Assembly: GCF_037975245.1 (NCBI RefSeq)
Contig: NC_092571.1
Location: 23,503,564-23,567,563, forward strand
Source: Apostichopus japonicus
Taxonomy: Eukaryota > Echinodermata > Holothuroidea > Aspidochirotida > Stichopodidae
Reading direction: 5' to 3'
DNA: 64,000 nucleotides
The notes under the pieces were generated by a model. The model was given only the letters and a program-made list of their open reading frames with translations, made no database searches and had not been told where the DNA came from. Of the stretch, positions 20,293 to 63,737 are shown piece by piece. The position numbers were made by a program, and so were the translations under genes. Positions within the stretch are counted from its first letter, which is position 1. Each line of letters begins with the position of its first letter.

Positions 20293-20368
20293 TTACGGAG
20301 AGATATCCTTCTCATATACGGCATCTTCCTTCTCCTTTACCCTACTCTCTGCCACTGGATGTACGTTC
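20293..20368 (-). CDS. SLC22 gene A, terminal exon 11
   Basis: Acceptor cttatag. Encodes a 24-residue charged cytoplasmic tail (…AESRVKEKEDAVYEKDISP) and the TAA stop at 20293-20295. Single copy here, in contrast to the tandem array at the equivalent place in gene B. Confidence 0.85.
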
Positions 20369-23300
20369 CTATAAGATAAAATAGATAAAAAAATCAGTAT
20401 AAAAAAAATTTGACCTGATGAGGCTAAACATTTCCTTTGGACAAACCCACAATGGAAATAATTGGTCACGAATCGGCGGGTGACTAGATCAATGCGATTA
20501 TAAAAGGGGTGACGCATGTCTCAATTTCTTAAAATATCAACAGTGAAAACAAAATTGAGATAATGAGTTAACTCATATTAATAAAAGTTCTCTCAATATT
20601 TTGAATTTGTGTTATTCAAGTAATAGTATTGGTTCGTGGCTTTGAATAAAACATATATCATACAACATTTCTAATCCCCTCCCCTCCCCCTCCTCACCTG
20701 CCACAACCCCCAGTGTACCGTGTATTTCAAGCATCTACTTGAACAGTAACAAAAACAACATTAAAAGCAGGCTTTGGTCCAAAGGGGTGTGATGTAGCCA
20801 TACTATAGAGATCTCATTTATATCCTAAATATATAGATGCTCCATTTCACGTCTAAAAGATTTTTTTGATCGGTTCGAGAGGGGGGGGGTCTCGGGAGGG
20901 TCCCCACGCCACTAACCCTACATGGGAGTCACTTCAACGACCCCAGGGCGAGACAACCTTTATAAAAAAAAAACCTGCATCCGCCCTTGTAAACGTCACC
21001 AGTGCTACATTTTGCTAAACATTTGAGAAATACCTTCCTGGTGATCTTTCATATTCACAATTTTTCCAGACATCGAAGAAGGCTAAATTAGACAAATCAA
21101 TGACTCAGTGAAGAAAAGGTTACGTTGAGGAAAGTGATCGTCAAACGTTTGTGTGAAGTTTGACCATTATTTGACTTCCTAGCATATTTGGGTTCAGACC
21201 GTTAAACTTACCTGTACAGAGCTTTCGTGTCCTGTATGGTAGCAGGGAGGGGTTTCCCCTTTGTTTCTGGCATGAGAAGGCAGAGAAGTCCAGCGATTAT
21301 TGAGCAAGACCCAAAGACCAAAATTGGAAGATGTGTCCAGACATTCTCTAAGAGGAGGATGAGAGGGGACAAGATACCGCCAACACGAGAAACTGTCGAG
21401 AAGAAACCTAATCCACTGTTCCTGGAAACGAGAAGAAAGACAAAAATGAATGAATCGGAAGGTATGTCTGACTCGAATAATTATCGCTTTGATTATATTA
21501 AGTGTATATATCATATCATCTGAATTAAGATTTATTTGGTACAAGTAGTCTGCTTAACTAAGATATTGAACGTTTTTGATACAATTTGTTCGTTTAACAG
21601 TTGTGCTGTTCAAGGCCCGAAAGTATCGTACATCAGTGTGCAACTGCGTCAAGCTTCATTGAGAGACATGAACTGAATACCAGGTACGAACTGTCATACA
21701 AAAGAAACAACTTTCCCAGAAGATTTTTTTTTCAGAAAACTACTTACCTCATGATGGTTGGAGTCAGTTCTGAAGCCCAAGAGTAAACAATGGAGAATGA
21801 CATGCTAATGAAGAACTTCCCCAACATAGCAACCAAAGCCCGCCATATTCCAAGAGCTGCACGAAAGAGAGAAAACGTTAGTGTAATAAAAAGAATGCCC
21901 TGGGCAAACTTTTGTTTTCAGTAATCATGAAAGGGGGACGTATTCTAAGCATTCTCTTGAAATTTGCATTCAATTCCCAGAACGAGTTTTTCTAGATTTT
22001 GATAGCTGAACCTGTCGCAATTTAGACCATTCAAAAGTGAACGGCCCATGTATGATGTTATCATGGAACTTTCGCCTTGCACATGTAGTTTTCAATGCAA
22101 CTATGTCGCCAATTTGCGGTCCTCGGTTATGGGGTAACTCCTTTCATTCTCTATACATTATCAGCTAACTGGTTTTACTATTCCGCACAGAGGCTTACAT
22201 TGGAGGTGCCCAAGTGACACACGAACCGAGATTCCTCTTTTTTTAATTCTTGTTACGTAACGCTATTTGTCTTTATGATCTATATCTTTTCAAAGTAATA
22301 AGTTACTCTTGATCGGGTTTTAATAAAGTTCGTCGTATACCGGTACCTATAGGCTATACTTATTTACTTACACCCTGAATGAAAAGGTGGTATAAATTAA
22401 ACATACAAGTTCGATACCGAAACCAACCTGTTATGACCGATAATTTCTATACGCTGACAAAGCAACGGTGGTAGGAATACAACCCACAAGCAAATTTTCC
22501 GCGGCCCCACGGTCTGCTTAAATGTCAAATGTGACCCCAGCAAATCGAAACAGTACTTTTTACCAACCAAATGACAGACTTACAATGAATTCACTGAATG
22601 GCAGACGCAAACAAAAACAACACGATACAAAGCAAAAACAAAGGGAAGAAATATAAATTTAACCGTGGTTGGCAAGATCAATTCTTGACCACCCCGGTGC
22701 AATGATGCATCATACTTACGTATTAACGGAGTTACACAACAGCATATCCCACCCAACAACATGACTCCACACGTGCTTCCTCTTCGTCCAAACCATTCGG
22801 CTACAAACATACAAAGGAAGTATGCTGGGATTTCAATTGTTCCAGAAATAAGAAACGCAATGTAAGGATCAATACCGAGAGAAGATGTACTTAAGGAGAG
22901 TCCATAGAAAACCAAACTCTGTACGATCCTGTTAAGAGAAACAAATAAGACCCGCTGATAAATTTGCTTACAGCACCAACCTCCACCACCCTCCTCCACC
23001 ACCCTCAACAACCCTCCACCACCCTCAACAACCCTCAACCACCCTCATCCACCCTCCACAAACCTGCACAACCCTCCAACACCTTCCACAACCTTCCATC
23101 CCTCGCAACCAACCTGAGTACTTAGTATAGCTGCATCAAATCGTAAAATTTCCGCATTTACCTTGCCTGCCAAACTTGGTCGCGTTTTAACACTGCGCCC
23201 TCGTCGACCTACATCCGGGCATCACCCAGTTTATCGTCTTTCCGATTCAATACAATTCTAAAGTAAAGCATCCCCCTTAGAAACAGGATTTTCACCTGTC

Positions 23301-26300
23301 TCGCACCGAATATATCATATTACAACCTATATGGCTGGCACTCGGGTAAAGAAATGGTTGAAAGAGATACCGTCACCGACAACTTGAAAAAAGCGAGAAT
23401 GGTCACTGGCAGGTTGGGCACAGGGACTTCTTAGGTCACTGGTTCGAGTCCTGTTCTATCAAATGCGATCTTTCTCTCTCTGATCAAGGATGATTTCCAA
23501 TACTTACCAATTAAAACTCATGTTCATCGTTATCAGGAAGATTGATCTGCTGCACACAAACTTCCGAACGGTTTGGAACATGCTATTCTGTTGATCTTCC
23601 TGTCACCATGAATGAAGAAAGTGTGATATGTAACATTGGTTTGAAGATACATTCTTACTTCTAAAGGGTCACAAATTTTACTCTTTGAACAGTTGAGTGC
23701 CCGCCAGTCAACTCCCAAGAGGGAATACTAACAACTTTAGCCTGTTGCATAGAGTGGAAGCACGTCTTACTCTTTTTGGGGAATACTATTGATTTTTAAA
23801 GGGCAATCCGATTGATCACAAACTAAATTACCACCGCTAATCCTCTGCCCCCCCCCCCACCCCGATGCCATCCGAGTAACTCGGTAACCGTTCTTAATAA
23901 GCTGGCGAAGATTTCCGCAGTATTACCAGATTTTAATGCAAATTTACCTCATTCGTCTGTTCAACCATTTTTCCAAAATTGTCTGACAGTGTCTTTCTAT
24001 TGACTTTGGCTATCTTTCTAAAGATATTCTCGGCAGATTCGAATCGCTTGTTGGATATCAACCATCTCGGTGACTCGGGAACGAATATTCTGGGTGTGAG
24101 ACAAACAGACAAATTAAAAGAATAAAGTATAGTGTTTATATCGTTATAATTATGTATAGTGCTATAGCAAACAATATAAATTATCGATAGCGTTGGTTTT
24201 AATCATGACTAAAACAACATATTATTACGACACCCTGCACGATGCCTCAGCAATATTCGTGCATTGTATTTTACGAACGCACTCTAGCCACCCCAACTTG
24301 GCATGATATATTTTCTAAAGAAAATGTGACATTTTGAGGGTGGGATTGTGGGGTGTGAGGAGGGGGGCTACGTCAGTGGGTCTCGTGATGTGATGAAGTG
24401 TTTAATGTACAGAATGATGCGATACTTACAGTGCCAAAATTAAAACAGGAATGTATGGTAGCGATATCACAAGCTGAACAATTCGCCAGTTTGGAATAAG
24501 GTAAGCAATTCCGGCGATGAGGTAGTATCCAATGGCGAAAAAGATAAAGGTAGTGTTCGACACTATTACCCTCTTGGAAGGAGCAACAAGTTCTACAACT
24601 GTAATGAAAAGAAATTTCATAAAACAATTATAAAATGAGCTGATATGTATTTTGAGAACCAAATGATAAAACTGAATGTGCTAACTTAGTTTAACAGTGT
24701 CACAGTTCGATATTACATCATTAATGTCTAGACAAACTGAATCACATTACAACCATAGTTTAAGAGATTTCTCATATTTATATTTTCTAATAATGTACAG
24801 AGCATTAAATTTATCTGCTCTTACGGTTTGAGAGAAAATCACATTCGAAAACGGATCTCCCCTACCACCTCCTGTAAGTTTACAAAAAATATTTAAACTT
24901 GAAAAGACAAAGAAAATGTTCTTTACTCACCTATGACGAAGCCAATCAGATTGATTCCTTTGGCAAAAATGCCAACGAAGAATCTTAACACAATGAACAT
25001 CCATATGTTCATCGAAAAGGTGTTTGCCACACCCATTAAGATCATTCCTGTGATGCATACAATAAAGGTCCATCTACGACCAAACCTGTTGTAGAAAATA
25101 AATGGAAAAACAAAGATCTTAGTTTCAATATTGCACAGGGGACTTAAATGATTCTATGATTTGTCAATGTGTATAATTTCATGTTGATAGTACACAAAGA
25201 GATAGGAAAAGCACACAACCAATACCGTTCCTATAATTTAAATATAAATATAAATATTTGCACCAATTATCGTAGAGTTAATTACTATTAACATTTCGCA
25301 TTATTTTTCCCATGGTGATATTTGAATTATGACCTTGTCAGTATATATTTTACTATCTATTGCGAATATGAGTCCATCATAAGTTGGGAATATGTTAAGA
25401 ATGTTTACATTCAGACTCAGAAAGATAAGACCACTCCTATATGGACTTCAGAATAGGATCAAAAGAGTCGTGGCGCAGCCCACCGTATCCCCTCTGTTTT
25501 TACACATAAATTCAAGAGTATTCCCTAACGAAAATGTTCGTTTAGAGTTAAATGAAGACCTCATTTATTACCTAAACGTTTTTTTTTTCTCTGAGGGAGG
25601 ACCCTCAGAACAACCTATATAGCAGTAATATTCCACCACGGTTGTAAATTCCCTTAAAAGGTCTTGGACCCACCGATGGCCCTTCCATAATGGTTGATGC
25701 CCCTACCTATAAATTAGTAGTGACGTAGTGACATTAGGTGCATTTCATTTTCACAGCTCGACATCCATGAATAAAAGGACGCATATATCATTCATAAACA
25801 AGGACTTTCCTATGGATATTTGCGAGGGATCAGCGAGGATCAGCAAGGATCAATGGGAAACAAGATGATGGTACGAGCAGGCAAGCCTATGCAAGATCAT
25901 GTGTGTGATTGTCATGGGAATATCGAATACAATGAATAAAATAAACATCAGAGTATATTGAAAAAGAAAACGTTGTGTACTTACACATCAGACATTATGC
26001 CTGGTAAAGCACTCCCAAACAAATAACCGACGAAGTAGAGGGATTGGGCTACGTTTGGCAGGTAATCCTTCCCACAAACTAGTTCAAACTGTAAGTATAA
26101 TAAAACAAATTAAAATATTTGATGGTTACGTGGATATGATATGTGAATGTTGATCAAATATGGTAAATATTATGATTGTTAACTATCGATAAAGGTACCA
26201 CCGTCATCAGCTTCATATATTATCCATGAGAATAATACGTTATCTTCACTTTACTGTCAGTGCTTGCAAGGTCGCCGATGGTCGATCCGGGAACTGGGGA

Positions 26301-29300
26301 TAGACAAGTCATCGGGTCCCATTTTGGAATCTTTATTTGTCCTTAAAGGTTATCAGTATTGTCCCATGAAAGGTTTGCAAGCCATTGAGAATGATACTAT
26401 ACTTTTAGAATGGCATTCAAATGATTCTTGAAATTTCAACAAGGGTTACCATTCTTTGTTTTTTTTTTTTTGGGGGGGGGGAGGGGTGGGATACTGATGA
26501 CATCTAATTCCATTTTGAACATGTATTCCGTATATACCGGACCACCTAATTGACCAAGGGGAGATACTCCCATATGACAACCTCTCCTAAGGCCTATAGT
26601 GCACCGATTGCATGAGACCAAGTACTACCAATATAATATTCAACATGTATCTATAGGAGAGCTGCATGCTTGCTGCGTTGAATTTATACAAATCTGACGG
26701 CATACTGTAGCAAAAATAAACATTAGCATGAAGAAAAATGACAGTTGTTATATATTCAAGAACATATACTGTACCTTGAATTATATTTGTGCCAATCTAA
26801 TTAAGTAGAAGGTTCTATTATATATTATGCTTATTAATACGAATTCCGTTGTACTGTAACTCTGGCCTGATAGTAGTAAATACACTGTACAGTAGTAAAT
26901 ACACTGAACAGGAGACAGTTACACTCTGGCTCTTGACCCAAAAAACACGTGTCTGTTTATTCATCCATTATTTTTGTGGATTGTTAGCTCAGTGCTTAAC
27001 GCCGGTGCCTTTCAATCATAAGGGCCCCCGTTCGAGTCACTCCCAGATTAATGTATGTCGTCCAGTTACAGAGTTGTTGACAATTAACAATTCATAATCA
27101 TGGACGTTAAATATGAATGTAAGAGAATGACTTCGGTCAGCTTGCGGATTTGATAAGCCAATGAGGCTTCTTCGCGAGTTCCTGCTTGCAGGGGGATCTA
27201 ATATACATACATACATTATACCCACGCATTGGAACCTCGAGGTGCTTTGTATAGTTACCCTTTCCATGATAGAAAAGCAGCGACAGCTGTACAGTAATTA
27301 TATGGAAAGTAGACATGTTACACATGCTGTAACGAGGTAACTAGGTCGACCCCGAATACATTGTCCTCCTTTCTTCCTTATGTTTATTATGAAAATTAGA
27401 AAACATTTTTGTTATCTTATATTTGCCAAGGCCCGTGTAATTGAACCAGGGCACGACTACAGCTGACCAGTATCTACAAATATGGCTAATTTTTCACTAG
27501 GGAAATAATTTTGCATGTGACGAGGTCTCCAACAGAGACTATTCCATAGCTGCGCTTATTGGTCGTTCAGTGTGCAGGCTTAAGTTCATGGCTATAGAAT
27601 ATTGAAGAGTTTTGAAAATTAGGTTACGACGATTGACTCAGAGTTGGAACGTGTTCAGTCAGGCCGGTAGGTGGCTGTCTGGAAAATACAACAAACATAT
27701 TATAAGCAAAATTAACCAAAATGCAAGCATACGGTCCATCTATAATTTTTTTTTTGTACCATGGTGAGGGGCCAGGGGAGTGAAGGGCAAAGGACGTACT
27801 TACATCTTGAATAATTGTACTCCTGAATGTACTCCTGTCGTACTCCCAACCTTCATCACAAGGAATCACTTCAAGCTCATTCGTGACGTTATCACCAAGA
27901 ACTATCGCTGTTTGTAGATCGATGTTTCCGACGTCGTATTTCGTACATTGTTCGTATTTCGTCGAATTGTCCTCGTCGATTATGATCGGTATGGACAGAC
28001 TTTTCTTAACATCCTCGCAGTTGAAATCAACATCATCTAAGTCAGTCGGACAATCATCGTTCACCCAAGATTTACACCAATGATCGCTCTTTCCAGCTGC
28101 AAACACCTGTAGGTATACGTGACAAGTGGACATCAGTAGGGGGATACATAACAGCGCCACAAGCAGTTTCTGATACAGACCAAAACTTCCGACCACCTTC
28201 TGTGTATCTTCAAAATTCATTGTGGTATCTGAGAAAGAAATAAACAGTTATTCTTTCATCATATCATTATTCTTACGTGAAAAGTGTGCCTTTTATATGT
28301 AGGTAGGTGTTAATATAGGTGGATATTTATTTTCGAACAAATACCGATTCCCAATTGTACCTCTATGTCTTTGTATATGTTAGTTAATCAGTTTAAAATT
28401 GACATTATGATGACTGAGTAAGTTTGTTATTTTACTGTTATATACTTAAATAAGGGGTTAATCAACGGTCTAGTGTGCGTTACTCACAGGATTAATGCAC
28501 GATCGGGGGATAATGCAAGCGATGCACGAGGGCGGAGCCCGAGTGCATCCATCGATAGCATTAACACCCGGAGTGCATTAATCATGTGAGTAACGCACGC
28601 TAGACCGTTGATTAACCCCGTTCATTCATACACTACCATTTGTGTGGGGGAAAAATCATAAAACAAAACATTTTTGGTTACATATAACCAAAGATTTATT
28701 AAAGTGATGCCCCATAATTTTACCGTGCGTTACTCACAGGATTAACCACGGTCAGCTGACCTGAATGGACCAATAGGATTTAGGAATCTTTACTAAGTAT
28801 GAATGAACATGTCATTCATCAGAAATGTACGTACTGAGTCTGTATAGAACCCTGCACACCTTTTAAAGTTTTGACGGAAGTTGGAATTGAGAACTTGTTT
28901 ATAAAGATGTCCATGCACAAACTTCCTAATGAGAGTCATTTCCTGGACGTTCTCAAAGAGTGAATGAATTCCCGGTCTTAGGGATTGAGATGGGTTTGTA
29001 TTCTTTACGTTCGTAACATTACAAGGAACAATCGTTCAAAAAGAATGGGTTTCGTGTGAGGTACTGAATTGTGAAATGCACACAGATGCTTTTAAAACAA
29101 TATTGCTTCTATTGAAATTTATTGTATTTACATCATTTTTGCTAAAATCATGTGTAGTATCTGTTCTTCTTGTATTGTAATACTCATCTGACGACGGTCA
29201 CAAAGCCTCGATTCAATAGGACTGGGGTTCAGAGTGGATCAATAGTATCTTGGTTTGGTTTTCGTGGTGCTCTTGGGTGATTCTTCTTATAAAGTATTTA

Positions 29301-33523: not shown

Positions 33524-34289
33524 TCTTGAGAATTTTCTTGAATGACTTCCAGTGACCCAAAACTTTAGTTGGACACAATGAATGAATGTATTTGTTGTTA
33601 CCATTTGTGATATTTTCTAGACCGATCCATTCTAACTACACCTTCTTTGTGCACGACTCGTGCTCAATGATGTTGTTAGTGACGCGTATATTGACAGAGG
33701 AAAGTACACGTACATTATCCTCCTATCCTTTAAAACGAAGTAATCCACAAAATGTTGACTTTTATTCCCTTCACATCCGTCAGACGATTCAGACGGATCA
33801 AGCGATGGAGCATAGTTGATCATGATTTAGGTAAAATTTTCTATTTTGTTCCAATCAAATTTTTCATGAGTATCATCTTTAGAGCACTTTAAATACGGTG
33901 GCTTGAATGTACCAATAATCGTAAACTTGTAAACTCAGTAAAAGGAAGGATATACACAGAAGGCGATATATTGTTTGTGAAACTGTTCATACCATGCATG
34001 CAAACGAATAGATTACGGGTATCTAACAATAATAATGATTCCTTTGATTTCTTCTGAAATCTTCAAATTAGACAAAATCCACTGCTAGGTTAGGATTTTT
34101 TAAACCTTAATAAATGAAATATATATACAAATTCGGAAGATTGTTTTTTTTTCCTATTTAATACTAACTCACAAAACAAACCCCATATACATCTGATGGT
34201 CGCAGTAACGAAATTATATATGATGTAAATTCTTAGAAATTGAATGTTGTTTCACGAATCAAGAAGACTGGGAAATTGCAACCATCTTT

Positions 34290-34697
34290 AGGCAGAATTA
34301 TCCTGAACATGAACAGCATCATACATCTCCTTTACCCCACTCTCTGCCACTGGATTATGGAGAGATATCCTGCTCATGAGCAGCATTTTCCTTCTCCTTC
34401 AGCCCACTCTCTGACACTGGATTATGAAGAGATATCCTGCTCATGAGCAGCATCTTCCTTCTCCTTCAGCCCACTCTCTGACACTGGATTATGAAGAGAT
34501 ATCCTGCTCATAAGCAGCATCTTCCTTCTCCTTCAGCCCACTCTCTGACACTGGATTATGGAGAGATACCTGCTCATAAGCAGCATCTTCCTTCTCCTTC
34601 AGCCCACTCTCTGACACTGGATTATATAGAGATATCCTGCTCATAAGCAGCATCTTCCTTCTCTTTAACCCCACTCTCTGACACTGGATGCACGTTC
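34290..34697 (-). repeat. 67-bp tandem array derived from the last SLC22 exon
   Basis: Successive CACTCTCTG landmarks at 34338, 34405, 34472, 34539, 34605 and 34672 give spacings of 67, 67, 67, 66 and 67. On the minus strand each unit re-encodes the tail phrase PVSESG(V/L)KEKEDAAYEQDIS followed by its own stop codon. The copy furthest from the gene is degenerate. Unit A has a single copy, so the exon end was amplified in B. Confidence 0.9.
34622..34697 (-). CDS. SLC22 gene B, terminal exon 11
   Basis: Acceptor ttctag, stop TAA at 34622-34624. This is the gene-proximal unit of the 67-bp array. It has a diverged ending (ATA TAA) compared with the TCA TAA of the units behind it. Confidence 0.82.
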
Positions 34698-37600
34698 CTA
34701 GAAAATAAAAATAAAAAACATTTCAGAATAACATAAGTTTTACCCTAATGAGGCTAAACCTTTCTTTTGGACATCCCCATGATGGACAGATTGGTCACGA
34801 ATTTGAAGGGTGACTAGAACAATGCGGTAATTTTACGTGTGACGCGTGTGTATTAACATTTCAACAGTGAAACAGAACTGAATGAGATAATGAGTCAACT
34901 CGAGTCATGAACACTTCTCTCTTTATTTTTTGAGTTTGTGTTTTTTTTAAAGTAACAGTGGTCGTTCCCTGCTTTGAATAAACATATATCACACAACATT
35001 CCTAATCCCCTAACTCCCCCCCCCCCACCCCCCGCCTTCTACGACCCATTTGTACAGTGTAATTTAAGCATCAGCTGGCACGGTAACAATAATAACATTA
35101 AATCAGGCGCTGGTCCAAAGTGGTGTGATGCTGCCATACTAGCACCACTATAGAGATCTAATTTATATCCTAAATATATATGCCCCAGGTAACGCCTAAA
35201 ATATATAAGGGCCGGGATGGGGTTGGTCCCCATACCACTCCCCCTACATGGCAGTCACTTCAACGACCCCAGGGCTACACAACCTTTATAAAAAAAATCC
35301 TACATCCGCCCTTGTAAAACGTCATCAGTGCTACTTTTTGCTAAAGCCTTTGAGAAATAATCTTCCTGGTGACCTTTTAACTTCACATTTTTTCCAGACA
35401 TCTAAGAAGGCTAAATTAGACAAATCAATGACTCAGTGAAAAAAGATACATTGAGGAAAGTGATCGTCAAATGTTTGTTTGAAGTTTGAACATAATTGAC
35501 CATTATTTGACTTCCTAGCATATTTGGGATCAGACCTTTAAACTTACCTGTACAGAGCCTTTGTGTCCTGAATGGTAGCAGGGAGGGGTTTCCCTTTTGT
35601 TTCTGGCATGAGAAGGCAGAGAAGTCCAGCGATTATTGAGCACGACCCAAAGACCAAAATTGGAAGATGTGTCCAGACATTCTCTAAGAGGAGGATGAGA
35701 GGGGACAAGATACCGCCAACACGAGAAACTGTCGAGAAGAAACCTAATCCACTGTTCCTGTAAACGAGAAGAAAGACACAATGAATGAATCGGAAGATAT
35801 GTCTGACTCGAATAATTATCGCTTTGATTATATTAAGTTTATATATCATATCATCTGAATTAAGATTTATTTGGTACAAGTTGTCTGCTTAACTAAGATA
35901 TTGAACGTTTTTGATAAAATTTGTTCGTTTAACAGTTGTGCTGTTTCAAGGCCCGAAAGTATCGTTCATCAGTGTGCAACTGCGTCGAGCTTCATTGAGA
36001 GACATGAACTGAATACCAGGTACGAACTGTCATACAAAAGAAACAACTTTCCCAGAAGATTTTTTTTTTCAGAAAACTACTTACCTCATGATGGTTGGAG
36101 TCAGTTCTGAAGCCCAAGAGTAAACAATGGAGAACGACATGGTAATGAAAAACTTCCCCAACATAGCAACCAAAGCCCGCCATATTCCAAGGGCTGCACG
36201 AAAGAGAGAAAACGTTAGTGTAATAAACCGAAAGCCCAGGGCAAACTTTTGTTTCCAGTAATCATGAAAGGGGAACGTATTCTAAGCATTCTCTTGAAAT
36301 TTGCATTCAATTCCCAGAACGAGTTTTTCTAGATTTTGATAGCTGAACCTGTCGCAATTTAGACCATTCAAAAGTGAACGGCCCAGGTATGATGTCATCA
36401 TGGAACTCTCGCCTTGCACATGTAGTTTACAATGCAACTATGTCGCCAATTTGCGGTCCTCGGTTATGGGGTAACTCCTTTCATTCTCTATACATTATCA
36501 GCTAACTGGTTTTACTATTCCGGGCAGAGGCTTACATTGGAGGTGCCCAAGTGACACACGAACCGAGATTCCTCTTTTTTTAATTCTTGTTAGGTAACGC
36601 TATTTGTCTTTATGATCTATATCTTTTCAAAGTAATAAGTTACTCTGTAACTTTTACCGCAAACGGTGATCGGGTTTTAATAAAGTTCCTCGTATACCGG
36701 TACCTATAGGCTATACTTATTTACTTACACCCTGAATGAAAAGGTGGTATAAATTAAACATACAAGTTCGATACCGAAACCAACCTGTTATGACCGATAA
36801 TTTCTATACGCTGACAAAGCAACGGTGGGAGGAATACAACCCACAAACAAATTTTCCGCGGCCCCACGGTCTGCTTAAATGTCAAATGTGACCCCAGCAA
36901 ATCGGAACAGTACTTTTTACCAACCAAATGACGACTTACAATGAATTCACTGAATGGCAGACGCAAACAAAAACAACACAATACAAAGCAAAATCAAAGG
37001 GAAGAAATACAAAATTTAACCGTGGTTGGCAAGATCAATTCTTGACCAACCCCGGTGCAATGATGCATCATACTTACGTATTAACGGAGTTAAACAGCAG
37101 CATATCCCACCCAACAACATGACTCCACACGTGCTTCCTCTACGTCCAAACCATTCGGCTACAAACATACAAAGGAAGTAAGCTGGGATTTCAATCGTTC
37201 CAGAAATAAGAAACGCAATGTAAGGATCAATACCGAGAGAAGATGTACTTAAGGAGAGTCCATAGTAAACCAAACTCTGTACGATCCTGTTAAGAGAAAC
37301 AAATAAGATCCGCTGATAAATTTGCTTACAGCACCAACCTCCACCACCCTCCACAACCCTCAACCACCCTCAACGAACCTCCACAACCCTCCAACACCTT
37401 CCACAACCCTGCATCCCTCGCAACCCACCTGAGTACTTCTGACCCTTATAGCTGCATCAAATCGTAAAATTTTCGCATTTACCTTGCCTGCCAAACTTGG
37501 TCGCGTTTTAACACTGCGCCCTCGTCGACCTACATCCGGGCATCACCCACTTTATCGTCTTTCCGATTCAATACAATTCTTAAGTAAAACATCCCCCTTA

Positions 37601-40600
37601 GAAACATAATTTTCATCTGTCTCACACTGAATATCTCATATGACAACTTATATGGCTGGCACTCGGGCCAAGAAATGGTTGAAAGAGATACCGTCACCGA
37701 CAACTTGAAAAAAAAGCGAGAATGGTCACTGGCAAGTTGAGTACAGGGACTTCTTAGGTCACTGGTTTGAATTCTGTTCTATCAAATGCGATCTTTCTCT
37801 CTCTGATCAAGGATGATCTGCAATACTTACCAATTAAAACTCATGTTCATTGTTATCAGGAAGATTGATCTGCTGCACACAAACTTCCGAACGGTTTGGA
37901 ACATGCTATTCTGTTGATCTTCCTGTCACGATGAATGAAGAAAGTGTGACATGTAACATTGGTTTGAAGATACATTCTTACTTCTAAAGTGTCAGAAATT
38001 TTACTCTTTGAACAGTTGAGTGTCCGCCAGTCAACTCCCAAGAGGGAATACTAACAACTTTAGCCTGTTGCATAGAGTGGAAGTACGTCTTACTCTTTTT
38101 GGGGAATACTATAATTGATTTTTAAAGGGCAATCGTATGGATCACAAACCAAATTACCCCCACTCATCCCCTCCAATCCCCTCCCCCCCCCCCACCCCGA
38201 TGCCATCCGAGTAACCCGGTAACTGTGCATAATAAGCTGGCGAAGAATTCCACAGTATTAACAGATTTAATGCAAATTTACCTCATAGGTCTGTTCAACG
38301 ATTTTTCCAAAATTGTCTGGCAGTGTCCTTCTGTTGACTTTGGCTATCTTTCTAAAGATATTGTCGGCAGATTCGAATCGCTTGTTGGATATCAACCATC
38401 TCGTTGACTCGGGAACGAATATTCTGGGTGTGAGACAAACAGACAAATGAAAAGAATAAAGTATAGTGTTTATATCGTTAAAATTATGTATAGTGCTAAT
38501 ATTATAGCAAACAATACAAAATATCGATAGCGTTGGTTGTTTGTGATGACTGGAACAACATTATATTACGACACCCTGCACGATGCCGCACGAATATTCG
38601 TGCATTGTCAAGGGCGGCGGAACCCGGGGGGGCACAGGTGGCACGTGCCCCCCCCCACTTTTCCTCAGGTTAAAAATGTGCCCTTTTTCTACATAAAAAT
38701 TGAGGTGTCTCAAGTTATCAAGAGGCCAGGGAACCAGAATGAACACTCGGGAAGGGCCGTTTCCGGCCATCTGAGGGGTTTGTAAAACCAATAATTTTCT
38801 TGTACGCTCCGCGCCAACCGATGGTGGTGCTCCGCTCAGATAGTCGTGCATACAGCTTTGCAAATCCTGGCTAAGCCCGTGACTTTTAATGAATTTCTGT
38901 GGGTCAAACTCAAAGCTATTTCAAATGCAAAAAAATTGTTAAGATATTAACAAGAAATAAACTCTAATTCGGAAGATTCCTACATTAGCAACTAGCATGA
39001 TTTCACCTCATTTTGTCTCAAAAGAAGACTTGTTCCTTGATTCCCAATTTGCACATTGGATATTGCAGTGCTAGTATGCATATTTTCCTTGAGGGGGGGG
39101 GTGGGGGCGTTGATGGAGTGATGTGTATACGCAAATAAGATAATACAATAAGAGTTATAAAGGGTACTAAATATAAGGCTGCATCAGTCCAATCGAATTT
39201 CTGCAAAGTGCCCTTTGATGTCGGTGCCCCCCCCCCCCCCAGATTAAAAGTGCTTCCGCCGCCCTTGTGCATTGTACTATACGAACGCACTCTAGCCACC
39301 CCAACTTGGTATTATATATTTTCTAAAGAAAATGTGACATTTTGGAGGTGGGATTGTGGGGTGTGAGGAGGGGGGCTACGTCAGTGGGTCTCGTGATGTG
39401 ATGTAGTGTTTAATGTACAGAATGATGCGATACTTACAGTGCCAAAATTAAAACAGGAATGTATGGTAGCGATATCACAAGCTGAACAATTCGCCAGTTT
39501 GGAATAAGGTAAACAATTCCCGCGATGAGGTAGTATCCAATGGCGAAAAAGATAAAGGTAGTGTTCGACACTATTACCCTCTTGGAAGGAGCAACAAGTT
39601 CTACAACTGTAATGAAAAGAAATTTCATAAAACAATTATAAAATGAGCTGATATATGTTTTAAGAACCAAATGATAAAACTGAATGTGCTGACTTAGTTT
39701 AACAGTGTCACATTTCGATATAAAATCATTAATGTTTAGACAAAACTGAATCACATTACAACCATAGTTTAAGAGATTTCTCATATTTATATAATATAAT
39801 CTAATAATGTACAGAGCATTTAAATTATCTGCTTTTACGGTTTGACAGAAAATCACATTCGAAAACGGATCTCCCCTTCCACCTCCTGTAAGTTTACAAA
39901 AAATATTTAAACTTGAAAAGACAAAGAAAATGTTTTTTACTCACCTATGACAAAGCCTATCAGGTTGATTCCTTTGACAAAAATGCCAACGAAGAATCTT
40001 AACACAATGAACATCCATATGTTCATCGAAAAGGTGTTTGCCACACCCATTATGATCATTCCTGTGATGCATACAATAAAGGTCCATCTACGACCAAACC
40101 TGTTGTAGAAAATAAATGGAAAACATAGTTCTTAGTTTCAATATTGCACAGGGGACTAAAATGGTGCTATGATTTGTCAATGTATATAATATCATTTTGA
40201 TAGTACACAAAGAGATAGGAAAAGCACACAACCAATACCGTTTCTATAATTAAACTATCAATATAAATATTTGCACCAATTTATCGTAGACTTAATTATT
40301 ATTATTAACATTTCGCATTATTTTTATTATTATTATTTTTCCCATGGTGTTATTTTGACTTATGACCTTGTCAGTATATATTTTACTATCTATTGCGAAT
40401 ATGAGTCCATCATAACTTGGGAATATGTCAAGAATGGCTCAGAAAGATAAGACCACTCCTATATGGACTTCAGAATATGATCAAAAGAGTCGTGGCGCAG
40501 CTCACCGTATCCCCTCTGTTTTTAAATTCAAGAGTATTCCTTAACAAAAATGTTCGTTTAGAGTTTAATGAAGACCTCATTTATTGCCTAAACGTTTCTA

Positions 40601-43600
40601 TTTTCTCTGAGGGAGGACCCTCAGAACAACCTATATAGTAGTAATATTCCGCCACGGTTGTAAATTCCATTAAAAAGTCTTGGACCCACCGCTGGCCCTT
40701 CCATAATGGTTGATGCCCCTGCCTATAAATTAGTAGTGACGTAGTGACATTAGGTGCATTTCATTTTCACAGCTCGACACAGCTCGACATCCATGAATAA
40801 AAGGACGCATATATCATTCATAAACAAGGACTTTCTTATGGATATTTGCGAGGGATCAGCGAGGATCAGCAAGGATCAATGGGAAACAAGATGATGGTAC
40901 GAGCAGGCAAGCCTATGCAAGAACATGTTTGTGATTGTCATGGGAATATCGAACACAATGAATAAAATAAACATCAGAGTATATTGAAAACGAAAAAGTT
41001 GTGTACTTACACATCAGACATTATGCCTGGTAAAGCACTCCCAAACAAATAACCGACGAAGTAGAGGGATTGGGCTACGTTTGGCAGGTAATCCATCCCA
41101 CAAACTAGTTCAAACTGTAAGTATCATAAAACAAATTAAAATATTTGATGGTTACGTGGATATTATATGTGAATGTTGATCAAATATGCCAAATATTATG
41201 ATTGTTAACTATTGATAAAGGTACCACCGTCATCAGTTCATATATTATCCATGAGAATAATACGTTATCTTCACTTTACTGTCAATGCTTGCAAGGTCGC
41301 CGATGGCCAATCCGGGAACTGGGGATAGACAGGTCATCGGGTCCCATTTTGGAATCTTTATTTGTCCTTAAAGGTTATCAGTATTGTCCTATAAAAGGTT
41401 TGCAAGCCATTGAGAATGATTATAAACTTAGACAATTTAATGTCTCAGTATGGATTTTAGAGTGGCATTCAAATGGTTCTTGAAATTTCAACAAGGGTGA
41501 CCATTATTTGCCTTTTGATTTATTTATTTTTGTTGGAGGGGGGATACATGATGAAATCTTATTACATTTTAAACATTTATCCCGTATATACCGGACCACC
41601 TAATTGACCAAGGGGAGATTCTCCCATATGACAACCTCTCCTAAGGCCTATAGTGCATCGACTGCATGAGACCAAGTACAACCAATATAATATTCAACAG
41701 GTTTCTATAGGAGAGCTGCATGCTTGCTGCGTTGAATTTATACAAATCTGATGGCATACTGTAGCAAAAATAAACATTAGCATGAAGGAAAATGGCAGTT
41801 GTTATATATTCAAAAACATACTGTACCTTGGATTATATTTGTGCCAAGCTCATTAATATAATAGAGGGTTCTATATATGATGCTTATTAATACGAATTCC
41901 GTTGTATTGTAACTCTGGCCTGATAGTAGTTAAATACACTGTACAGTAGTAAATACACTGTACAGGAGACAGTTACACTCTGGCTCTTGACCAAAAAACA
42001 CGTGTCTGTTTATTCATCCATTATTTTTGTGGAGTGTTAGCTCAGTGGTTAACGCCGGTGCCTTTCAATCATAAGGTCCCCGGTTCAAGTCACTCCCAGA
42101 TTAATGTATGTCGTCCAGTTACAGAGTTGTTGGCAATTAACAATTCATAATCATGGACGTTAAATATGAATGTAAGAGAATGACTTCGGTCAGCTTGCGG
42201 CTTTGATAAGCCAATGAGGCTTCTTCGCGAGTTCCTGCTTGCAGGGGGATCTAATATACATACATACATTATACCCACGCATTGGAACCTCGCGGTGCCT
42301 TGTATAGTTACCCTTTCCACTATAGAAAAGCAGCGACAGCTGTACAGTAATTATATGGAACGTAGACATGTTACACATGCTGTAACGAGGTAACTAGCTC
42401 GACCCCGAATATATTGTCCTCCTTTCTTCCTTATGTATATTATGAAAATGAGAAAACATTTTTGTTATCTTATATTTGCCAAGGCCCGTGTAATTGAACC
42501 CGGGCACGACTACAGCTGTCCAGTATCTACAAATATGGTTAATTTTTCACTAGGGAAATAATATTGCATGTGACGAGGTCTCCAACAGAGACTATTCAAT
42601 AGCTGCGATTATCGGTCGTTCAGTGTGCAGGGTTAAGTTCATGGCTATAGAATATTGAAGAGTTTCGAAAATTCGGTTACAATGATTGACTCGGAGTTGG
42701 AACGTGTTCAGTCAGGCCGGTAGGTGGCTGTCTGGAAAATACAACAAACATATTAAAAGCAAAATTAACCAAAATGCAAGCATACGGTCCATCTATAGTT
42801 TTTTTTTTTTTTTGTACCATGGTGAGGGGTCAGGGGAGTGAAGGGCAAAGGACGTACTTACATCTTGAATAATTGTACTCCTGAATGTACTCCTGTCGTA
42901 CTCCCATCCTTCATCACAAGGAATCACTTCTAGCTCATTCGTGACGTTATCACCAAGAACTATCGCTGTTTGTAGATCGATGTTTCCGACGTCGTATTTC
43001 GTACATTGTTCGTATTTCGTCGAGTTGTCCTCGTCGATTATGATCGGTATGGACAGACTTTTCTTAACATCCTCGCAGTTGAAATCAACATCATCTAAGT
43101 CAGTCGGACAATCATCGTTCACCCAAGATTTACACCAATGGTCGCTCTTTCCAGCTGCAAACACCTGTAGGTATACGTGACAAGGGGCCATCAGTAGGGG
43201 GATACATAACAGCGCTACAAGCAGTTTCTGATACAGACCAAAACTTCCGACCACCCTCTGTATATCTTCAAAATTCATTGTGGTATCTGAGAAAGAAACA
43301 AACAGTTATTCTGTGAATATCATATAATTATTCTTGAGTGAAAAGTATGACATTAAAATGAGGAAATATTTAAATTCGAGAAAACCGATTCCCATTTATA
43401 GCTCTCTTTCTTTGTTACTGTTAATTAATTTTACATTATTTACAATACGATGACCGAGTAAATTTTTAATTTACTGTGTATTGTGTATTGTTTTGTGTGT
43501 GTTGTGAACACCAATTTCCAACCGAATGCATTCTCCTTTCTTTTGAATGCAAAAGAAAAATGCATTTACTACTATTTGAGAGTGTCCACAATGACATATA

Positions 43601-46600: not shown

Positions 46601-49600
46601 AAGCAACTAAAAATGTTATGAAATAATACCTCCATTATGTCCACGCCAAGTTCAAATAAAGGTCACGCAGGTCAAAGCAAAGCAACGTTGCCCAGCGATA
46701 ACAAGTTAGAATTTGAAGTATTTTAATATCATTTAGCGAACAATCGTAGATCGGCTACGCAAAACAATGCGTATCACTTACTTAAGAATTAACCTGCTCT
46801 GTACGTTTTCAATTATAAACTCCCCGCCCCCCCCCCCCCTCTTACTCAGCTAAAATGAAGTTAAAATTCACTTTTGTTTCTACCTTTTGAACAACATTAA
46901 CTTGGTTTATATCGGTGGATTGACAGCCAGTATTTTTTTTTTTTTTTTTGAAGTTTATATCATGTACTGCCTAGTCTTGTTCACAAACGGTGATGTAACG
47001 TCATATGATTGGCCAAGTATAGGGCAATCTCCAAGTATGCTGCAATCGGGGCATTAAATTTGAGTGGTAGGCAGTGGCGGCGCCAAGGGGGGGGGGGGGG
47101 GGGGCTTTAGCCCCCCACCCCCCACTGAAGTAGTCAGCCCCCCATTAGCCCCCCCCCCCCACTGAAATAGGCAAAAAAAAAAACCTCATTGAAACAATAT
47201 AGCCTACCCAAATTTTGTCAGCCATAACGCAGTGCTACAATGGTCAATGGAAATTTTGATGAATTTTTCACATGAAAATAGTCAGTGACTCAGTTGTGGT
47301 GCAGAAAGCCTTGTTTTGGTGACTGATAAAACAAATCAGAATCCAGCTTTATCCGCCAGGTGTTGATGAGTTGTTTCTCAATTATTTTAGTGATACGAAA
47401 ACTGTGAATTGGTATCTTCCATTCTAATTTGACTAAAGTTACTCACAAAAAAATGCATATTTTTGGAGAAATTTTCAGGTGACAAAAGCCTCGCTAAATG
47501 CCACCATTTTGCATGTAGGCCTTTCCAGGATTGGGAAAAATTTCACCCCCTCCCCTTATACCCCTCCCCCAGGACGGCGATCACTCAATCTTGTAAGCCA
47601 CCCAAAAAATTGGCTCAGCCCCCCCCCCCCCTTAGCCTCCCCATCTAAATATTCCTGGCGCCGCCACTGGTGGTAGGGGCACCAACTATTTAAGGAGGGG
47701 CAGCATATTTGTGTCTTGTAACTTGTGAAGTTTCTCAAACACATGCTAATATATATTTAGTGGCACAGACGGGGGAGACACCTCACCCCACCTCCACTAT
47801 CCCCGAAAACATGTGTCCCAAATTTGGGAGGAAAAACTAGTCAGAAATTCGACGTATAGGTAAAAGTGTCAATGATTTCAGTTTTAAGTGTTAATGTAAT
47901 GGTCATGTGATCTTGGAAATAAGCAAAATTATCAGGGATACTGAGATAAATACTAAAGTGGCATTCCAGGTCAGTACATGTGGTAACTGGATTGAGTTAT
48001 TTTTAAATCAAGCTTCATTTGGCACATTTCACAAACTGGTTCCAGTTTGACGTATAAAGGAGCTACACTTATATCAGCAGGCGTTCCCTAAGCATGCGTA
48101 CCACAGTACTTTGAAATAAAATATTTAAAGAAAAAAAAACACCTAAGATAGAGGCTTTGCACGAAAACCAAACAACTTTAATTGATATAAGCAAGGGCGG
48201 CGGAACCGGGGGGCACAGGGGGCACGTGCCCCCCGCCCACTTATCTTCAGGTTAAAAATGTGCCCTTTTTCTACATAAAAATTGAGGTGTCTCAAGTTAG
48301 CAAGAGGCCAGGGAACCAGAATGAACACTCGGGAAGGGCCGTTTCCGGCCATCTGAGGGGTTTGTAAAACCAAAAACTTTCTTGTACGCTCCTCGCCAAC
48401 TAATGGTGGCGCTCCGCTCAGATAGTCGTGCATACAACTTTGCAAATCCTGGCTACGCCCCTGACTTTTAATGAATTTCTGTGGGTCAAACTCAAAGCTA
48501 TTTCGAATGGAAAAAAAATTGTTAAGATATTAACAAGAAATAAACTCTAATTCGGAAGATTCCTACATTAGCAACTAGCATGATTTCACCTCATTTTGTC
48601 TCAAAAGAAAACTTGTTCCTTGTTTCCCAATTTGCACATTGGATATTGCAGTGCTAGTATGCATATTTTCCTTGAGGGGGGGGGGGGGAACTTGATGGAG
48701 TGATGTGTATACGCAAATAAGATAATACAATAAGAGTTATAAAGGGTACTAAATATAAGGCTGCATCAGTCCAATCGAATTTCTGCAAAGTGCCCTTTGA
48801 TGTCGGTGCCCCCCCCCCCCCAGATTAAAAGTGCTTCCGCCGCCCTTGGATATAAGAGAAGACAAGAAGCTATTGCATGAGTATCTGCAAACTAAAATAC
48901 GTCATCAACATTTTTTTCTTTCTTTTTTACTAAACTAGTAACTGCCAGAACCAGATTTACAAATCGGATAAAAAAAACTGCTATGATCGTTACATTATAA
49001 GTTTGCATTGGCTGATTAATTAAGTAAACTTGACTGTCAATAGTTTGGTAAATCTGGTCACCAGCATTTTCGCCGGCCGAGCTATTTTATACTTTGCAAT
49101 TATTCCTTTGAGCCTTCTGTTTTATATAGACCTATAAATACTACGTGACATACGTTGACAGTGCCTGTGATGATTATATCTCACATATGCAGCTGAACAT
49201 AAATGGGTACTTTCTTAACATAAGTCACCCCCCAGAGACTAGAACCTGGGCACGAAAGACCAAACAACCAAACTTAAATAGGTGATTTAGAACAAAGAAA
49301 AGAGTCAACGTACCTTATTTATACCAGGCTAAGCGCTTGCGGGTCAGTGCCTTAACTACTGTACTTTCCAAGTTGAGCTTCCAATGACATGAACATCTTT
49401 GACAGGTGTGCGCTTCAGTAATGCATTGCATGTAGAATCTTTTTAGCCATACTTTGGCAGATTTGTAAACACTATTTATAAGAGTCCAAATATTTCTTCA
49501 TTAAAGTCTTTTCCTGGACGTTCTCAAAGAGTGAACTGAATTCCCGGTCTTAAGGGATTGAGATAGTTTTGTATTCTTTACGTTCGTAACATTACAAGGA

Positions 49601-51737
49601 ACAATCGTTCACAAAGAATGGGTTCCGTCACGGTGAGGCATACTGAATTGTGAAACGCATACAGATGCTTTTAACACAATAGAGTTTCTATTGCAACTTA
49701 TTGTAATTACGACATTCCGGCTAAGATCATGTGTAGTATCTGTTCTCCTTGTAGGGGAATCGTGATACACATCTGACGACGGTCACACGGTCTCGATGCA
49801 ATGGTTCTGATGTTGAGAGCGGATCAGTCGTTCGGCTGTTTGGTTTTTAATGTCCAGGTTCTTTCTTGGGTGACTTTTCTAAAAAAAAAAGTATCTGCTC
49901 CCTTTCTTAGGACTCGTGATACTCATCTGACAATGATCATCAAGCCTCGATTCAATAGGACTGGGGTTCAGAGTGGATCGATAGTATCTTGGTTTGGTTT
50001 TCGTGGTGCTCTTGGGTGACTCTTCTTATAAAGTATTTACAGTGACAATAATGCGACTTAAAATGACTAAATGACTGAAAGTGGAACAATTGTACGGTAA
50101 TACGAATCAATCCCGCCAACTAGGATTTTTTTTTTGTACTTAACAAGCAGTTTTTTCTTAGTTTTTCTCCGATTAATCGTATTTTCGTGCATACTTTTCG
50201 TTTTTATAATTGAAAGAAGAAATTTATGTTGCAGCAGCAAGCAAATATAGCAACAGTTTGAGAGTAAGCTACTACCAAATATGACAACACCAAAATATGG
50301 GCATTTGCCTGTCAGAAATAGTCCCAACGCAGCCCCCCCCCCACTCCCCCTGAGGGTTCATGTACCTCACCCCTACCCACTAGGATGGGAAACACTGTAA
50401 CAGCATCATAGCAAACTTTTAATATCGAAAGGAGTGGTCGATTTCTGCTATACCTTTAAGAATGAGTTAAGAGAATGGTGGTGTCCAGTTTGCTTGTTAC
50501 AGCCTATATGCAGGTTAACATCAGTAACTCTAGTACGTAGTAAGTCTTTAACGTAATGAGTGGACTAATATCCCGCAAGTTGACAACCACTTCATCGAAG
50601 AGATCAGGATAATTTTAATGTCACGCTTTAAACGTCTTTACTTTAATGCAATATTTTTTGTCTGTCATAAACAGTCCCAATGCCAGCCCCCGCCAACCCC
50701 CCCCCCCGCCCATCAGGGTGCATGCACCTCACCCTTACCCATAACGTTGGGGGAAGTGTGACAGCGTCAGAGCCAACTTTTAATATCGAAAGGAGTGGTT
50801 GATTTCTAGTATACCTTTAAGAATGATTTAAGAGAATGGTGGTGTCCAATTTGCTTGTAATATACCCTTTTATGCAAGTTAAAAGCAGTAGTTCTAGTAC
50901 GTGGTAAGTCGGTATCGTAATGCGTCGACTAATATACCACAACTTAACAACCACTTCATCGAAGAGATCAGGATAATTTACTGTCACACTAAACGTCTCT
51001 ACTTGAATGCAATATTTGTTGTCTGTCATAAACAGTCCCAATGCCTGCTTCCCTCCCATCAGGTTGCATGTACCTCACCCCTACCCACCTGAAATTGGGA
51101 AAATGTGACAGCATCATAACCTACCTTTAATATCGAAAGGAGTGGTCGATTTCTGCTATACCTTGAAAAATGAGTTAAGAGAATGGTGGTGTCCAGTTTG
51201 CTTGTAATAGCCTATATATGCATGTTAACAACAATAATTCTAATACGTGTTAAGTCGGTAACGTAATGCGTCGACTAATATACCACAAGTTGACAACCAC
51301 TTCATCGAACAGATCAGGATAATTTTAATGTCACACTATAAACTTCTTAACCTTATTATTGCAATATTGTTGTTTAAAAGAAAAGTAACCCAAGATATAG
51401 CCTTGGCACAAAATAAATTGATCCACTCTCAACTATACTTCACTTACTTTGGGAGTGTTACCGTATCAGCATGATGATGGTACATTATGTCCTGCTAACA
51501 ATGCCCTGGGTAACTTGCCTGACGTAATACTGTAGTTTAGTCCTACTCTAGTCTTGCCATTAAACATAAATCCGTTACTATTACTGATCGGTCTAAACGG
51601 TTACGTTTCGTTACAGTTCCATTTGCGGCAAAGAATAAAGGCTAGTATGTATCGTATAAAGCTGAATCTTCTATCAAATAAAACATGATTATTTATCGGA
51701 AAACTGTAAAAAAATATGACATACCTGTTGCAGCCAT
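34622..51737 (-). CDS. SLC22-family solute carrier, gene B (11 exons, 567 aa)
   Basis: Exons, gene order: 51725-51737, 42862-43286, 41011-41114, 39945-40099, 39438-39606, 38282-38423, 37831-37922, 37078-37286, 36085-36193, 35548-35757, 34622-34697. Lengths and phases equal those of gene A, splice sites are intact and no frame break was found, so it looks functional. The protein is nearly identical to A (five differences in the first 146 residues) and should have the same 12-TM carrier fold and membrane location. Notable differences: the signature PESPRW reads PESTRW (T296); exon 3 has GMDYLP for GKDYLP; the tail reads SESGVKEKEDAAYEQDISI. Intron 1 is about 8.4 kb, against 3.6 kb in A. TM11 keeps Arg485. 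Same-substrate duplication or early divergence cannot be told apart from sequence alone. Confidence 0.9.
35548..35757 (-). CDS. SLC22 gene B, exon 10
   Basis: TM11 with SRVGG (Arg485), TM12 and PETKGKPLPATIQD; acceptor tttacag. Confidence 0.9.
36085..36193 (-). CDS. SLC22 gene B, exon 9
   Basis: TM10 and ELTPTIMR; GKFFITMSF where A has GKFFISMSF. Confidence 0.9.
37078..37286 (-). CDS. SLC22 gene B, exon 8
   Basis: YYGLSLSTSSLG, TM7-TM9 and EWFGRRG. One Phe to Tyr change relative to A near the start. Confidence 0.9.
37831..37922 (-). CDS. SLC22 gene B, exon 7
   Basis: Same 92-nt exon as in A, phase 0 to phase 2; acceptor gacag, donor gtaagt. Confidence 0.88.
38282..38423 (-). CDS. SLC22 gene B, exon 6
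   Basis: Carries PESTRW in place of the family PESPRW, then the intracellular loop; a few other substitutions relative to A, for example TYE for TNE at the end. Confidence 0.9.
38609..39267. mobile_element. hAT-like MITE, 659 bp, in intron 5 of gene B
   Basis: Inverted ends CAAGGGCGGCGGAA and TTCCGCCGCCCTTG match perfectly in the outer part. The flanking tgcattgt at 38601-38608 and 39268-39275 is an exact 8-bp target duplication. The same intron in gene A has a single tgcattgt (24260-24267) with no element: an empty site. It is nearly identical to the copy at 48192-48848. No transposase frame. Confidence 0.95.
39438..39606 (-). CDS. SLC22 gene B, exon 5
   Basis: TM5-TM6 region with APSKR and IPNWR. 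One Ala to Val change relative to A (AGIVYLIP). Confidence 0.9.
39945..40099 (-). CDS. SLC22 gene B, exon 4
   Basis: FGRRW loop, TM3 and TM4. Differs from A by FVKG for FAKG and by one Ile/Leu change. Confidence 0.9.
41011..41114 (-). CDS. SLC22 gene B, exon 3
   Basis: FELVCGMDYLP then TM2; donor gtaagt, acceptor acag. Confidence 0.9.
42035..42270 (+). mobile_element. tRNA-derived SINE, family 2 (unit B)
   Basis: Same insertion as 26982-27216 in unit A. The tRNA-like head is better preserved here (TAGCTCAGTGGTTAACGCCGG, GGTTCAAGTC). Confidence 0.85.
42862..43286 (-). CDS. SLC22 gene B, exon 2
   Basis: TM1 and large extracellular loop. Same boundaries as gene A exon 2, with a few substitutions near TM1 (…LLMAPCHV against LLMSTCHV). 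Confidence 0.9.
43500..47063. other. Unit B-specific DNA in intron 1 of gene B, left part
   Basis: No counterpart in unit A. An exon-like segment at about 44131-44221 (acceptor-like ACATTGTCAG, donor-like GCAG/gtaata) encodes a short acidic stretch (DDDEEYDHLDDVLKMSENG). A 76-codon frame follows at 44389-44619. I do not recognise either. The rest is AT-rich without motifs; T and C runs occur at about 46820-46950. Confidence 0.4.
47072..47669. mobile_element. hAT-like MITE, 598 bp, with 8-bp target duplication
   Basis: Ends CAGTGGCGGCGCCA and TGGCGCCGCCACTG are perfect inverted repeats. The flanks gtggtagg (47064-47071 and 47670-47677) are an exact 8-bp duplication. Long G and C runs lie inside both ends. 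Non-coding. Confidence 0.94.
48192..48848. mobile_element. hAT-like MITE, 657 bp, same family as 38609-39267
   Basis: Same ends (CAAGGGCGGCGGAA, inverted at the right) and nearly the same body. The flanks gatataag (48184-48191 and 48849-48856) are an exact 8-bp duplication. Two nearly identical copies about 9.6 kb apart imply recent activity. Confidence 0.95.
48857..51716. repeat. 5' part of intron 1 of gene B with tandem duplications
   Basis: From about 49507 the sequence again matches unit A. A stretch around TCTGACGACGGTCAC...CTTGGGTGACT is present twice (about 49760-49880 and 49920-50030). The block with CCTCACCC.TACCC and TTTAATATCGAAAGGAGTGG is present about three times (starts about 50322, 50671, 51031; period about 350-360), against once in unit A. 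No gene recognised. Confidence 0.7.
51725..51737 (-). CDS. SLC22 gene B, coding exon 1 (13 nt)
   Basis: ATG GCT GCA ACA G with donor gtatgt. Reads in frame into exon 2 (M-A-A-T-D-T-T-M). The flanking sequence is conserved with unit A around 31841-31930, which supports a real first exon. Confidence 0.65.
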
Positions 51738-53165: not shown

Positions 53166-53191
53166 TGACATCTTATTTGTTCTCTTAACAG

Positions 53192-53306
53192 GATCGTACA
53201 GAGTTTGGTTTACTATGGACTCTCCTTAAGTACATCTTCTCTCGGTATTGATCCTTACATTGCGTTTCTTATTTCCGGAACAATTGAAATCCCAGCATAC
53301 TTATAC
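53192..53306 (+). pseudogene. Orphan, internally deleted SLC22 exon 8
   Basis: After an intact acceptor (ctcttaacag) the sequence encodes IVQSLVYYGLSLSTSSLG… as in exon 8 of A and B. It stops matching after EIPAY and resumes at the exon's last bases, so about 94 of 209 nt are missing and the frame is broken. The donor is gttagt instead of gtaagt. Flanking intron sequence is also homologous (about 53170-53350). It lies on the strand opposite to A and B and no companion exons were found nearby, so it is a relic. Confidence 0.88.
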
Positions 53307-55859: not shown

Positions 55860-56830
55860 AGATATTATTTATAACTCATTTGTCCTTATCAAACTGTCTT
55901 CGAAAAAACCCACTATATAAATGTGCAAGAGAGCGACAATATCACTTTTCAAGAGTGTATAGAATTAAATGATTTTTTAAGATTTTTTTAATTAATTAGT
56001 CTTAATCAAACTGTCTTCAAAAAACCCACTATAGATGTGCAAGAGAGCGACAATCTCACTTTACAAGAGTGTATAGAATAAAATGATTTTTTTTCAAGAT
56101 TTTTTTATGATTTTTTAATTAATTTATCTGAATCAAACTGTCTTCGAAAAACCTACTATAAATATGCAGGAGAGCGACAATCTCACTTTTCAATAGGGGA
56201 TAGAAAAAATGATTTTTAAATTTTTTATTTTTTTTTATTAATTTGTCTTAATCAAACTGTCTCGAAAATCCCACTATAGATATGCAAGAGAACGACAAAC
56301 TCACTTTGCAAGAGTGTGTAGAATAAAATGATTTTTTAAAGATTTTTTTATGATTTTTTTAAAATTAATTTGTTTTGATCAAACTGTGTGCGAAAAACCT
56401 ACTATAGATGTGCAAGAGAGCGACAATATCACTTTTCAAGAGTGTATAGAATAAAATGATATTTTAAAGATTTTTCTAAGATTTTTTTAATTAATATATC
56501 TAATTCAAACTGTCTCGAAAAACCCACTATAGATGTGCAAGAGAGCGACAATCTCACTTTACAAGAGTGTGTAGAATAAAATGATTTTTTTCAAGATTTT
56601 TTTATGATGTTTTTAATTAATTTATCTGAATCAAACTGTCTTCGAAAAACCTACTATAAATCTGCAGGAGAGCGACAATCTCACTTTACAAGAGGGTATA
56701 GAATAAAATGATTTTTAAAGATTTTTTATGATTTTTTTAATTAATTTGTCTTAATCAAACTGTCTCGAAAAACCCACTATTGATATGCAAGCGAGCGAAA
56801 ATCGCACTTTTCAAGGGTGTAGATGAATAA
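55860..56830. repeat. Satellite of about 124 bp in a four-unit higher-order arrangement
   Basis: Eight copies, marked by CAAACTGTCT and GAGAGCGACAA, with AAACTG landmarks at 55891, 56008, 56135, 56254, 56381, 56507, 56633 and 56757. Copies 1/5, 2/6, 3/7 and 4/8 share diagnostic variants, so a block of about 497 bp has been duplicated as a whole. It lies upstream of SLC22 gene C. Confidence 0.9.

Positions 56831-57320: not shown

Positions 57321-63737
<6,417 letters not shown>

Follow-up and report, generated by a model that had tools for sequence, protein, structure and literature searches.

In Apostichopus japonicus, an SLC22-like gene, here termed gene B, has the end of its last coding exon repeated head to tail in six units of about 67 bp. 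We favor, at a probability of roughly 0.85, the reading that this array is a 3'-UTR minisatellite that arose through tandem duplication of the coding end and whose units 2–6 are harmless. The array lies on the minus strand (34687–34288) of the window, i.e., the whole 64,000-nt stretch of contig NC_092571.1 (23503564–23567563) that was analyzed, and its first unit begins 10 nt inside exon 10 (Table 1). Because the unit ends with a stop codon, the protein would still end in the first unit, and the additional copies would reside in the untranslated part of the message.

The host gene has an open frame with GT-AG boundaries at all nine introns. Its protein matches the Pfam family MFS_1 (2.9e-29) and also Sugar_tr, and the best match among solved structures is SLC22A6 (E 1.2e-79, residues 1–545 of 560), a near-full-length similarity that is consistent with membership in the SLC22 transporter family. 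The next gene, gene A, is the paralogue of gene B: the starts of the two are about 15 kb apart, and the proteins differ at 22 of 560 residues. In 250-column windows, exons 1–9 with their introns are about 89–99% identical (A 28228–21029, B 43286–35357). Beyond exon 9, identity is 72–79% in intron 9 and exon 10 and 85–92% in part of the 3' flank; upstream of exon 1 it is 52–73%. The dS between the genes is 0.07 in the core and 0.51 in the tail, the latter on 25 codons. This pattern resembles the outcome of a gene conversion that covered the gene bodies and stopped before the tail exon. In addition, intron 4 of gene B contains a segment of about 659 bp (38609–39267) that has no counterpart in gene A and a 96% identical copy at 48192–48848; it looks like a mobile insert.

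Table 1. Features of genes A and B and of the array; all coordinates are positions in the 64,000-nt window.
Feature	Position	Strand	Remarks
SLC22-like gene B	34622..43278	minus	10 coding exons, 560 aa
Gene B exons 1–5	43278-42862, 41114-41011, 40099-39945, 39606-39438, 38423-38282	minus	
Gene B exons 6–10	37922-37831, 37286-37078, 36193-36085, 35757-35548, 34697-34622	minus	
Gene B exon 10, coding part	34622..34697	minus	10-nt head (34697-34688) plus unit 1 through TAA; tail R-NVHPVSESGVKEKEDAAYEQDISI and stop
Unit 1	34621..34687	minus	67 nt; stop at 34624-34622
Unit 2	34555..34620	minus	66 nt, 1-nt deletion
Unit 3	34488..34554	minus	67 nt
Unit 4	34421..34487	minus	67 nt
Unit 5	34354..34420	minus	67 nt
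Unit 6	34288..34353	minus	66 nt to its TAA; diverged
AATAAA	33761..33766	minus	context same as that of the gene A AATAAA at 19766
Paralogous gene A	20293..28220	minus	10 coding exons, 560 aa
Gene A exon 10	20368-20293	minus	one copy of array unit

Three lines of evidence establish that the array is real, with the six units and the spacing described in the initial annotation of this DNA. TRF reports a repeat at 34299–34689 with a period of 67, 5.9 copies, 93% matches, and a score of 635. The unit starts (the higher coordinate of each unit in Table 1) are spaced by 67, 66, 67, 67, and 67 nt. Finally, lag 67 gives the best self-match among lags 50–90 (247 of 320 sites), compared to only 109–120 of 320 sites at these lags in all ten first-order Markov controls. 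The single copy that the same annotation had given for gene A was likewise borne out.

Exon 10 of gene B is preceded by TTTTATTTTCTAG. The copied segment ends precisely at the stop codon, and exons 1–9 read in frame to the stop of unit 1. As judged from this frame, unit 1 is expected to be the sole unit that is translated, and RNVHPVSESGVKEKEDAAYEQDISI would be the only tail of the gene product. At its far end, unit 6 continues into the 3' flank common to gene A (TAAAGATGGTTG). The proposal that a coding exon has become a minisatellite describes the end of this exon, which was copied, but not its acceptor and first 9–10 nt, which are not part of the unit. Likewise, the view that every unit re-encodes the tail and a stop codon applies to five of the six. 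In unit 2, a 1-nt deletion (CAGGATATC to CAGGTATC) removes the stop from the tail frame, which continues into unit 3. The deletion also creates a weak donor-like site, CAG/GTATCT, of 4.6 bits; two of 29 real donors (from 20 of 27 SLC22 loci plus the nine of gene B) score lower. The gene-proximal unit does use a last codon of its own, ATA, although this codon also varies among the units behind it, with TCA, TCA, CCA, and GCC in units 3, 4, 5, and 6. Since 67 is not divisible by three, read-through was predicted to change the tail, and reading through the stop of unit 1 would indeed yield the unrelated SSVREWAEGEGRCCL.

The relationships among the units, compared over 66 aligned sites, bear on how the array formed. 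Units 2–5 differ from one another at 1–3 sites and from unit 1 at 5–7, while unit 6 differs from units 1–5 at 13–15; all six units are distinct in sequence. The gene A copy differs from units 1–5 at 10–11 of the 66 sites and from unit 6 at 14. At sites 7 and 41, unit 6 has the base of gene A and units 1–5 do not, which suggests that units 1–5 descend from one changed proximal copy or were homogenized. The picture suggested by these comparisons is that of a homogeneous interior with older edges. Values of dN and dS among the units (21 codons each, with unit 2 omitted for its gap) are too noisy to infer selection. To its left, unit 1 is bordered by sequence that matches the exon head and the intron; to its right, unit 6 is bordered by sequence that matches the 3' flank of gene A. 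Such borders are expected of an internal tandem duplication. Gene A exon 10 reads GAACGTACATCCAGTG...CCGTAAAGATGG, and the inner unit junctions of the array read TAATCCAGTG. From these junctions we infer that the copied piece began close to the exon start and closed with the stop codon, and that its breakpoints have one base in common.

A tandem duplication within gene B would account for this anatomy. The initial event would have copied a 67-nt piece that begins 9–10 nt into exon 10 and takes in the whole stop codon as its end. The breakpoints ...CA/TCCAGTG and ...TAA/AGATGG would be joined to ...TAA/TCCAGTG, and their shared base would be compatible with slippage or end joining. Extra copies would then have piled up in the 3' UTR with the protein unaltered. 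Interior copies 2–5 would have expanded or been homogenized, and edge copies 1 and 6 would have retained or gained private differences.

The 3' end of the message is compatible with this course of events. Behind all six units, about 520 nt past the array, lies an AATAAA in a region (B 33895–33710) that is 91.9% identical between the two genes. This word is a probable poly(A) signal behind the entire array. Further AATAAA-like words occur nearby, e.g., ATTAAA at 34162, which is likewise behind the array, and one of these may set the exact 3' end instead. In all likelihood, the array sits in the 3' UTR of the gene B message, where its five extra units would add 333 nt relative to a single unit. 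Folded as a whole, the array RNA is more stable than 100 shuffles (z -3.76), while the seven single-unit folds, from the six units and the 67 nt of the gene A exon, gave z values from -1.12 to 0.86. The single folds do not stand out, so the stability of the whole array may reflect mere repetition, although a structural role of the array RNA is conceivable.

The array is the only one of its kind recovered in a search of the genome (671,581,487 bases, 671.6 Mb, in 35 contigs), in which the best candidates were scored. Among these, the matches to the array query were the array itself and the gene A copy, and a query of 83 nt, with matches admitted up to E 10, gave seven, all of them array units or the gene A exon. 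We also applied TRF to nine stretches of 5.5–6.3 kb, covering nine of 56 SLC22 matches. No tail-like array was found in them, but this control is weak, as a last exon was recognized solely in locus L033. In this locus, the next-best paralogue by exon 9, the last exon is probably single and has the tail RNSQPVEMKQAPEKETTDSQPNSKNVV. The repeats with periods of 59 (L033) and 63 (L036) are A+T-rich. Within the window there is a third SLC22-like gene, gene C (57321–63734, plus strand). About 20 kb past the window lie an exon 9 that matches and a last exon that is probably single, both possibly parts of gene C. An isolated SLC22 fragment between genes B and C (53181–53303, plus strand) resembles part of exon 7. 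The window contains other tandem arrays at 10982–12221 (a 54-bp unit in 23 copies with 94% matches; the unit aligns to its own reverse complement as well), at 50305–51338 (361-bp units), and at 55965–56834 (127-bp units).

The array could alternatively be a stop-bearing coding minisatellite that acts as a C-terminal tail reservoir: the tail of the transporter would be swapped or doubled by exchange at the proximal edge, or now and then by splicing. Taken together, we regard this as unlikely. In the variant that does without alternative splicing, which we consider quite unlikely, unequal exchange would shift the gene-proximal unit and thereby yield different tails. The units differ in their last codons as such a reservoir would, and the deletion in unit 2 lets units 2 and 3 share a frame. 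If unit 2 came first, the product would have a doubled tail, ...PVSESGLKEKEDAAYEQVSLHNPVSESGLKEKEDAAYEQDISS, of 48 residues instead of 26, counting from the Tyr that precedes the junction of exons 9 and 10. On the other hand, this scenario draws on one assembly, and the distinctness of unit 1 from units 2–5, at the 5–7 sites given above, points to infrequent exchange at the coding edge. Were it true, an allele without unit 1 would encode the doubled tail, and if alleles change the first unit, the gene would offer a simple system, occurring in nature, in which a transporter tail can change rapidly.

Splicing of exon 9 to later units, which would make these tandem alternative terminal exons with alternative C-termini, is very unlikely. 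We scored sites with a matrix of 35 acceptors: the nine of gene B and 26 from 27 SLC22 loci, a set that excluded L003 and L004 (genes A and B) and L009 and to which L021 contributed none. The true exon-10 acceptor, scored with itself left out (34 acceptors), reached 9.8 bits and lies upstream of units 2–6. All 56 AGs in the array were scored. The 26 that would retain the tail frame reach 2.3, 2.3, 1.7, and 1.3 bits, with the remaining 22 below zero, and one of the 35 real SLC22 acceptors is lower than the best two. The suggestion of spare tail exons made in the initial annotation is therefore poorly supported. What does speak for splicing is that each unit junction has a CCAG after a short pyrimidine stretch, and that these five sites score in the low range of real acceptors (4.3, 3.5, 5.4, 5.4, and 6.7 bits in gene order, with 4, 2, 7, 7, and 11 of the 35 below them). 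Their use would, however, shift the frame and give unrelated tails: products 1 and 2 both end in SVREWAEGEGRCCL, product 3 in SVREWAEGEGRCCS, and products 4 and 5 in SVREWAEGEGKCCS and SGREWGKGDV, respectively. The AG at 34302, at the end of unit 6 (5.3 bits), would produce another unrelated tail. A GAGCAG/GATATC acceptor in units 1, 3, 4, or 5 would cross the next junction and regain the tail frame, yet it falls under the same limit of 2.3 bits. Of the 3566 AGs on the minus strand of the window, 495 score at least 2 bits and 182 at least 5; such scores are common, and the acceptor-like sites of the array are thus not remarkable, although a matrix score leaves room for weak use of them. The +1 frame is open from unit 1 into unit 3, since the early +1 stop of units 2–6 is missing only from unit 1; we looked for a strong route into the +1 frame of unit 1 and found none.

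Two other matrices were set aside. The first, with 18 sites, was built from genes A and B only, i.e., from two near-identical genes; it gave -1.1 to 2.1 for the junction sites and, for the true site, 12.9 with itself included and 3.0 with its pair left out. The second comprised 20 acceptors; some of its minus-strand loci were misoriented, and 11 of the 27 loci gave an acceptor. With this faulty matrix the junction sites scored 7.2–9.6 and the true site 9.1. As the matrices disagree, the ranking of acceptors depends on the training set.

Tandem repeats are places at which mis-assembly is possible. That an assembly artefact produced the array is nevertheless highly implausible, as its roughly 400 nt are far shorter than a HiFi read (mean 14.7 kb as given in part of a report on an A. 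japonicus HiFi assembly, PMC10344927) and its six units, no two of them quite the same, are told apart by variants.

Seen as a 3'-UTR minisatellite, the array is genuine, and its explanation would be ordinary: a tidy curiosity. It is also a clean case of a coding end that would have turned into a 3'-UTR minisatellite with the end point of the protein unaltered, because the duplicated piece stops exactly at the stop codon. A literature search judged by titles and the starts of abstracts yielded nothing on the gene B array, nor a match for a tandemly duplicated, stop-bearing terminal exon as a 3'-UTR minisatellite. Among known systems, tandem alternative (mutually exclusive) exons are head-to-tail exon copies. 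The end of an exon is copied head to tail in gene B as well, but units 2–6 have neither intervening introns nor a strong acceptor. The zinc-finger array of Prdm9 offers a second likeness, a coding-sequence repeat unit with a distinct first unit: in the available part of PMC3890296, its first-position repeats are distinct from the others, and repeats carrying stop codons sit in the last position, which implies that the array is translated. By contrast, five of the six gene B units close with a stop, and translation is expected of the first alone. Units of a coding minisatellite are translated serially in one frame; in gene B, a stop closes unit 1 and the period of 67 is not divisible by three. 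A further likeness is to SLC6A3 (DAT1), which carries a 40-bp VNTR in exon 15, within the 3' UTR (PMC9776373, in part). Both are solute-carrier genes with a minisatellite in an exon that is 3' UTR in DAT1 and probably so in gene B, where units 2–6, tens of base pairs each, follow in tandem behind the stop of unit 1. In gene B, which was read in one assembly, the unit differs in that it duplicates the coding end of the host gene itself, complete with the stop codon.
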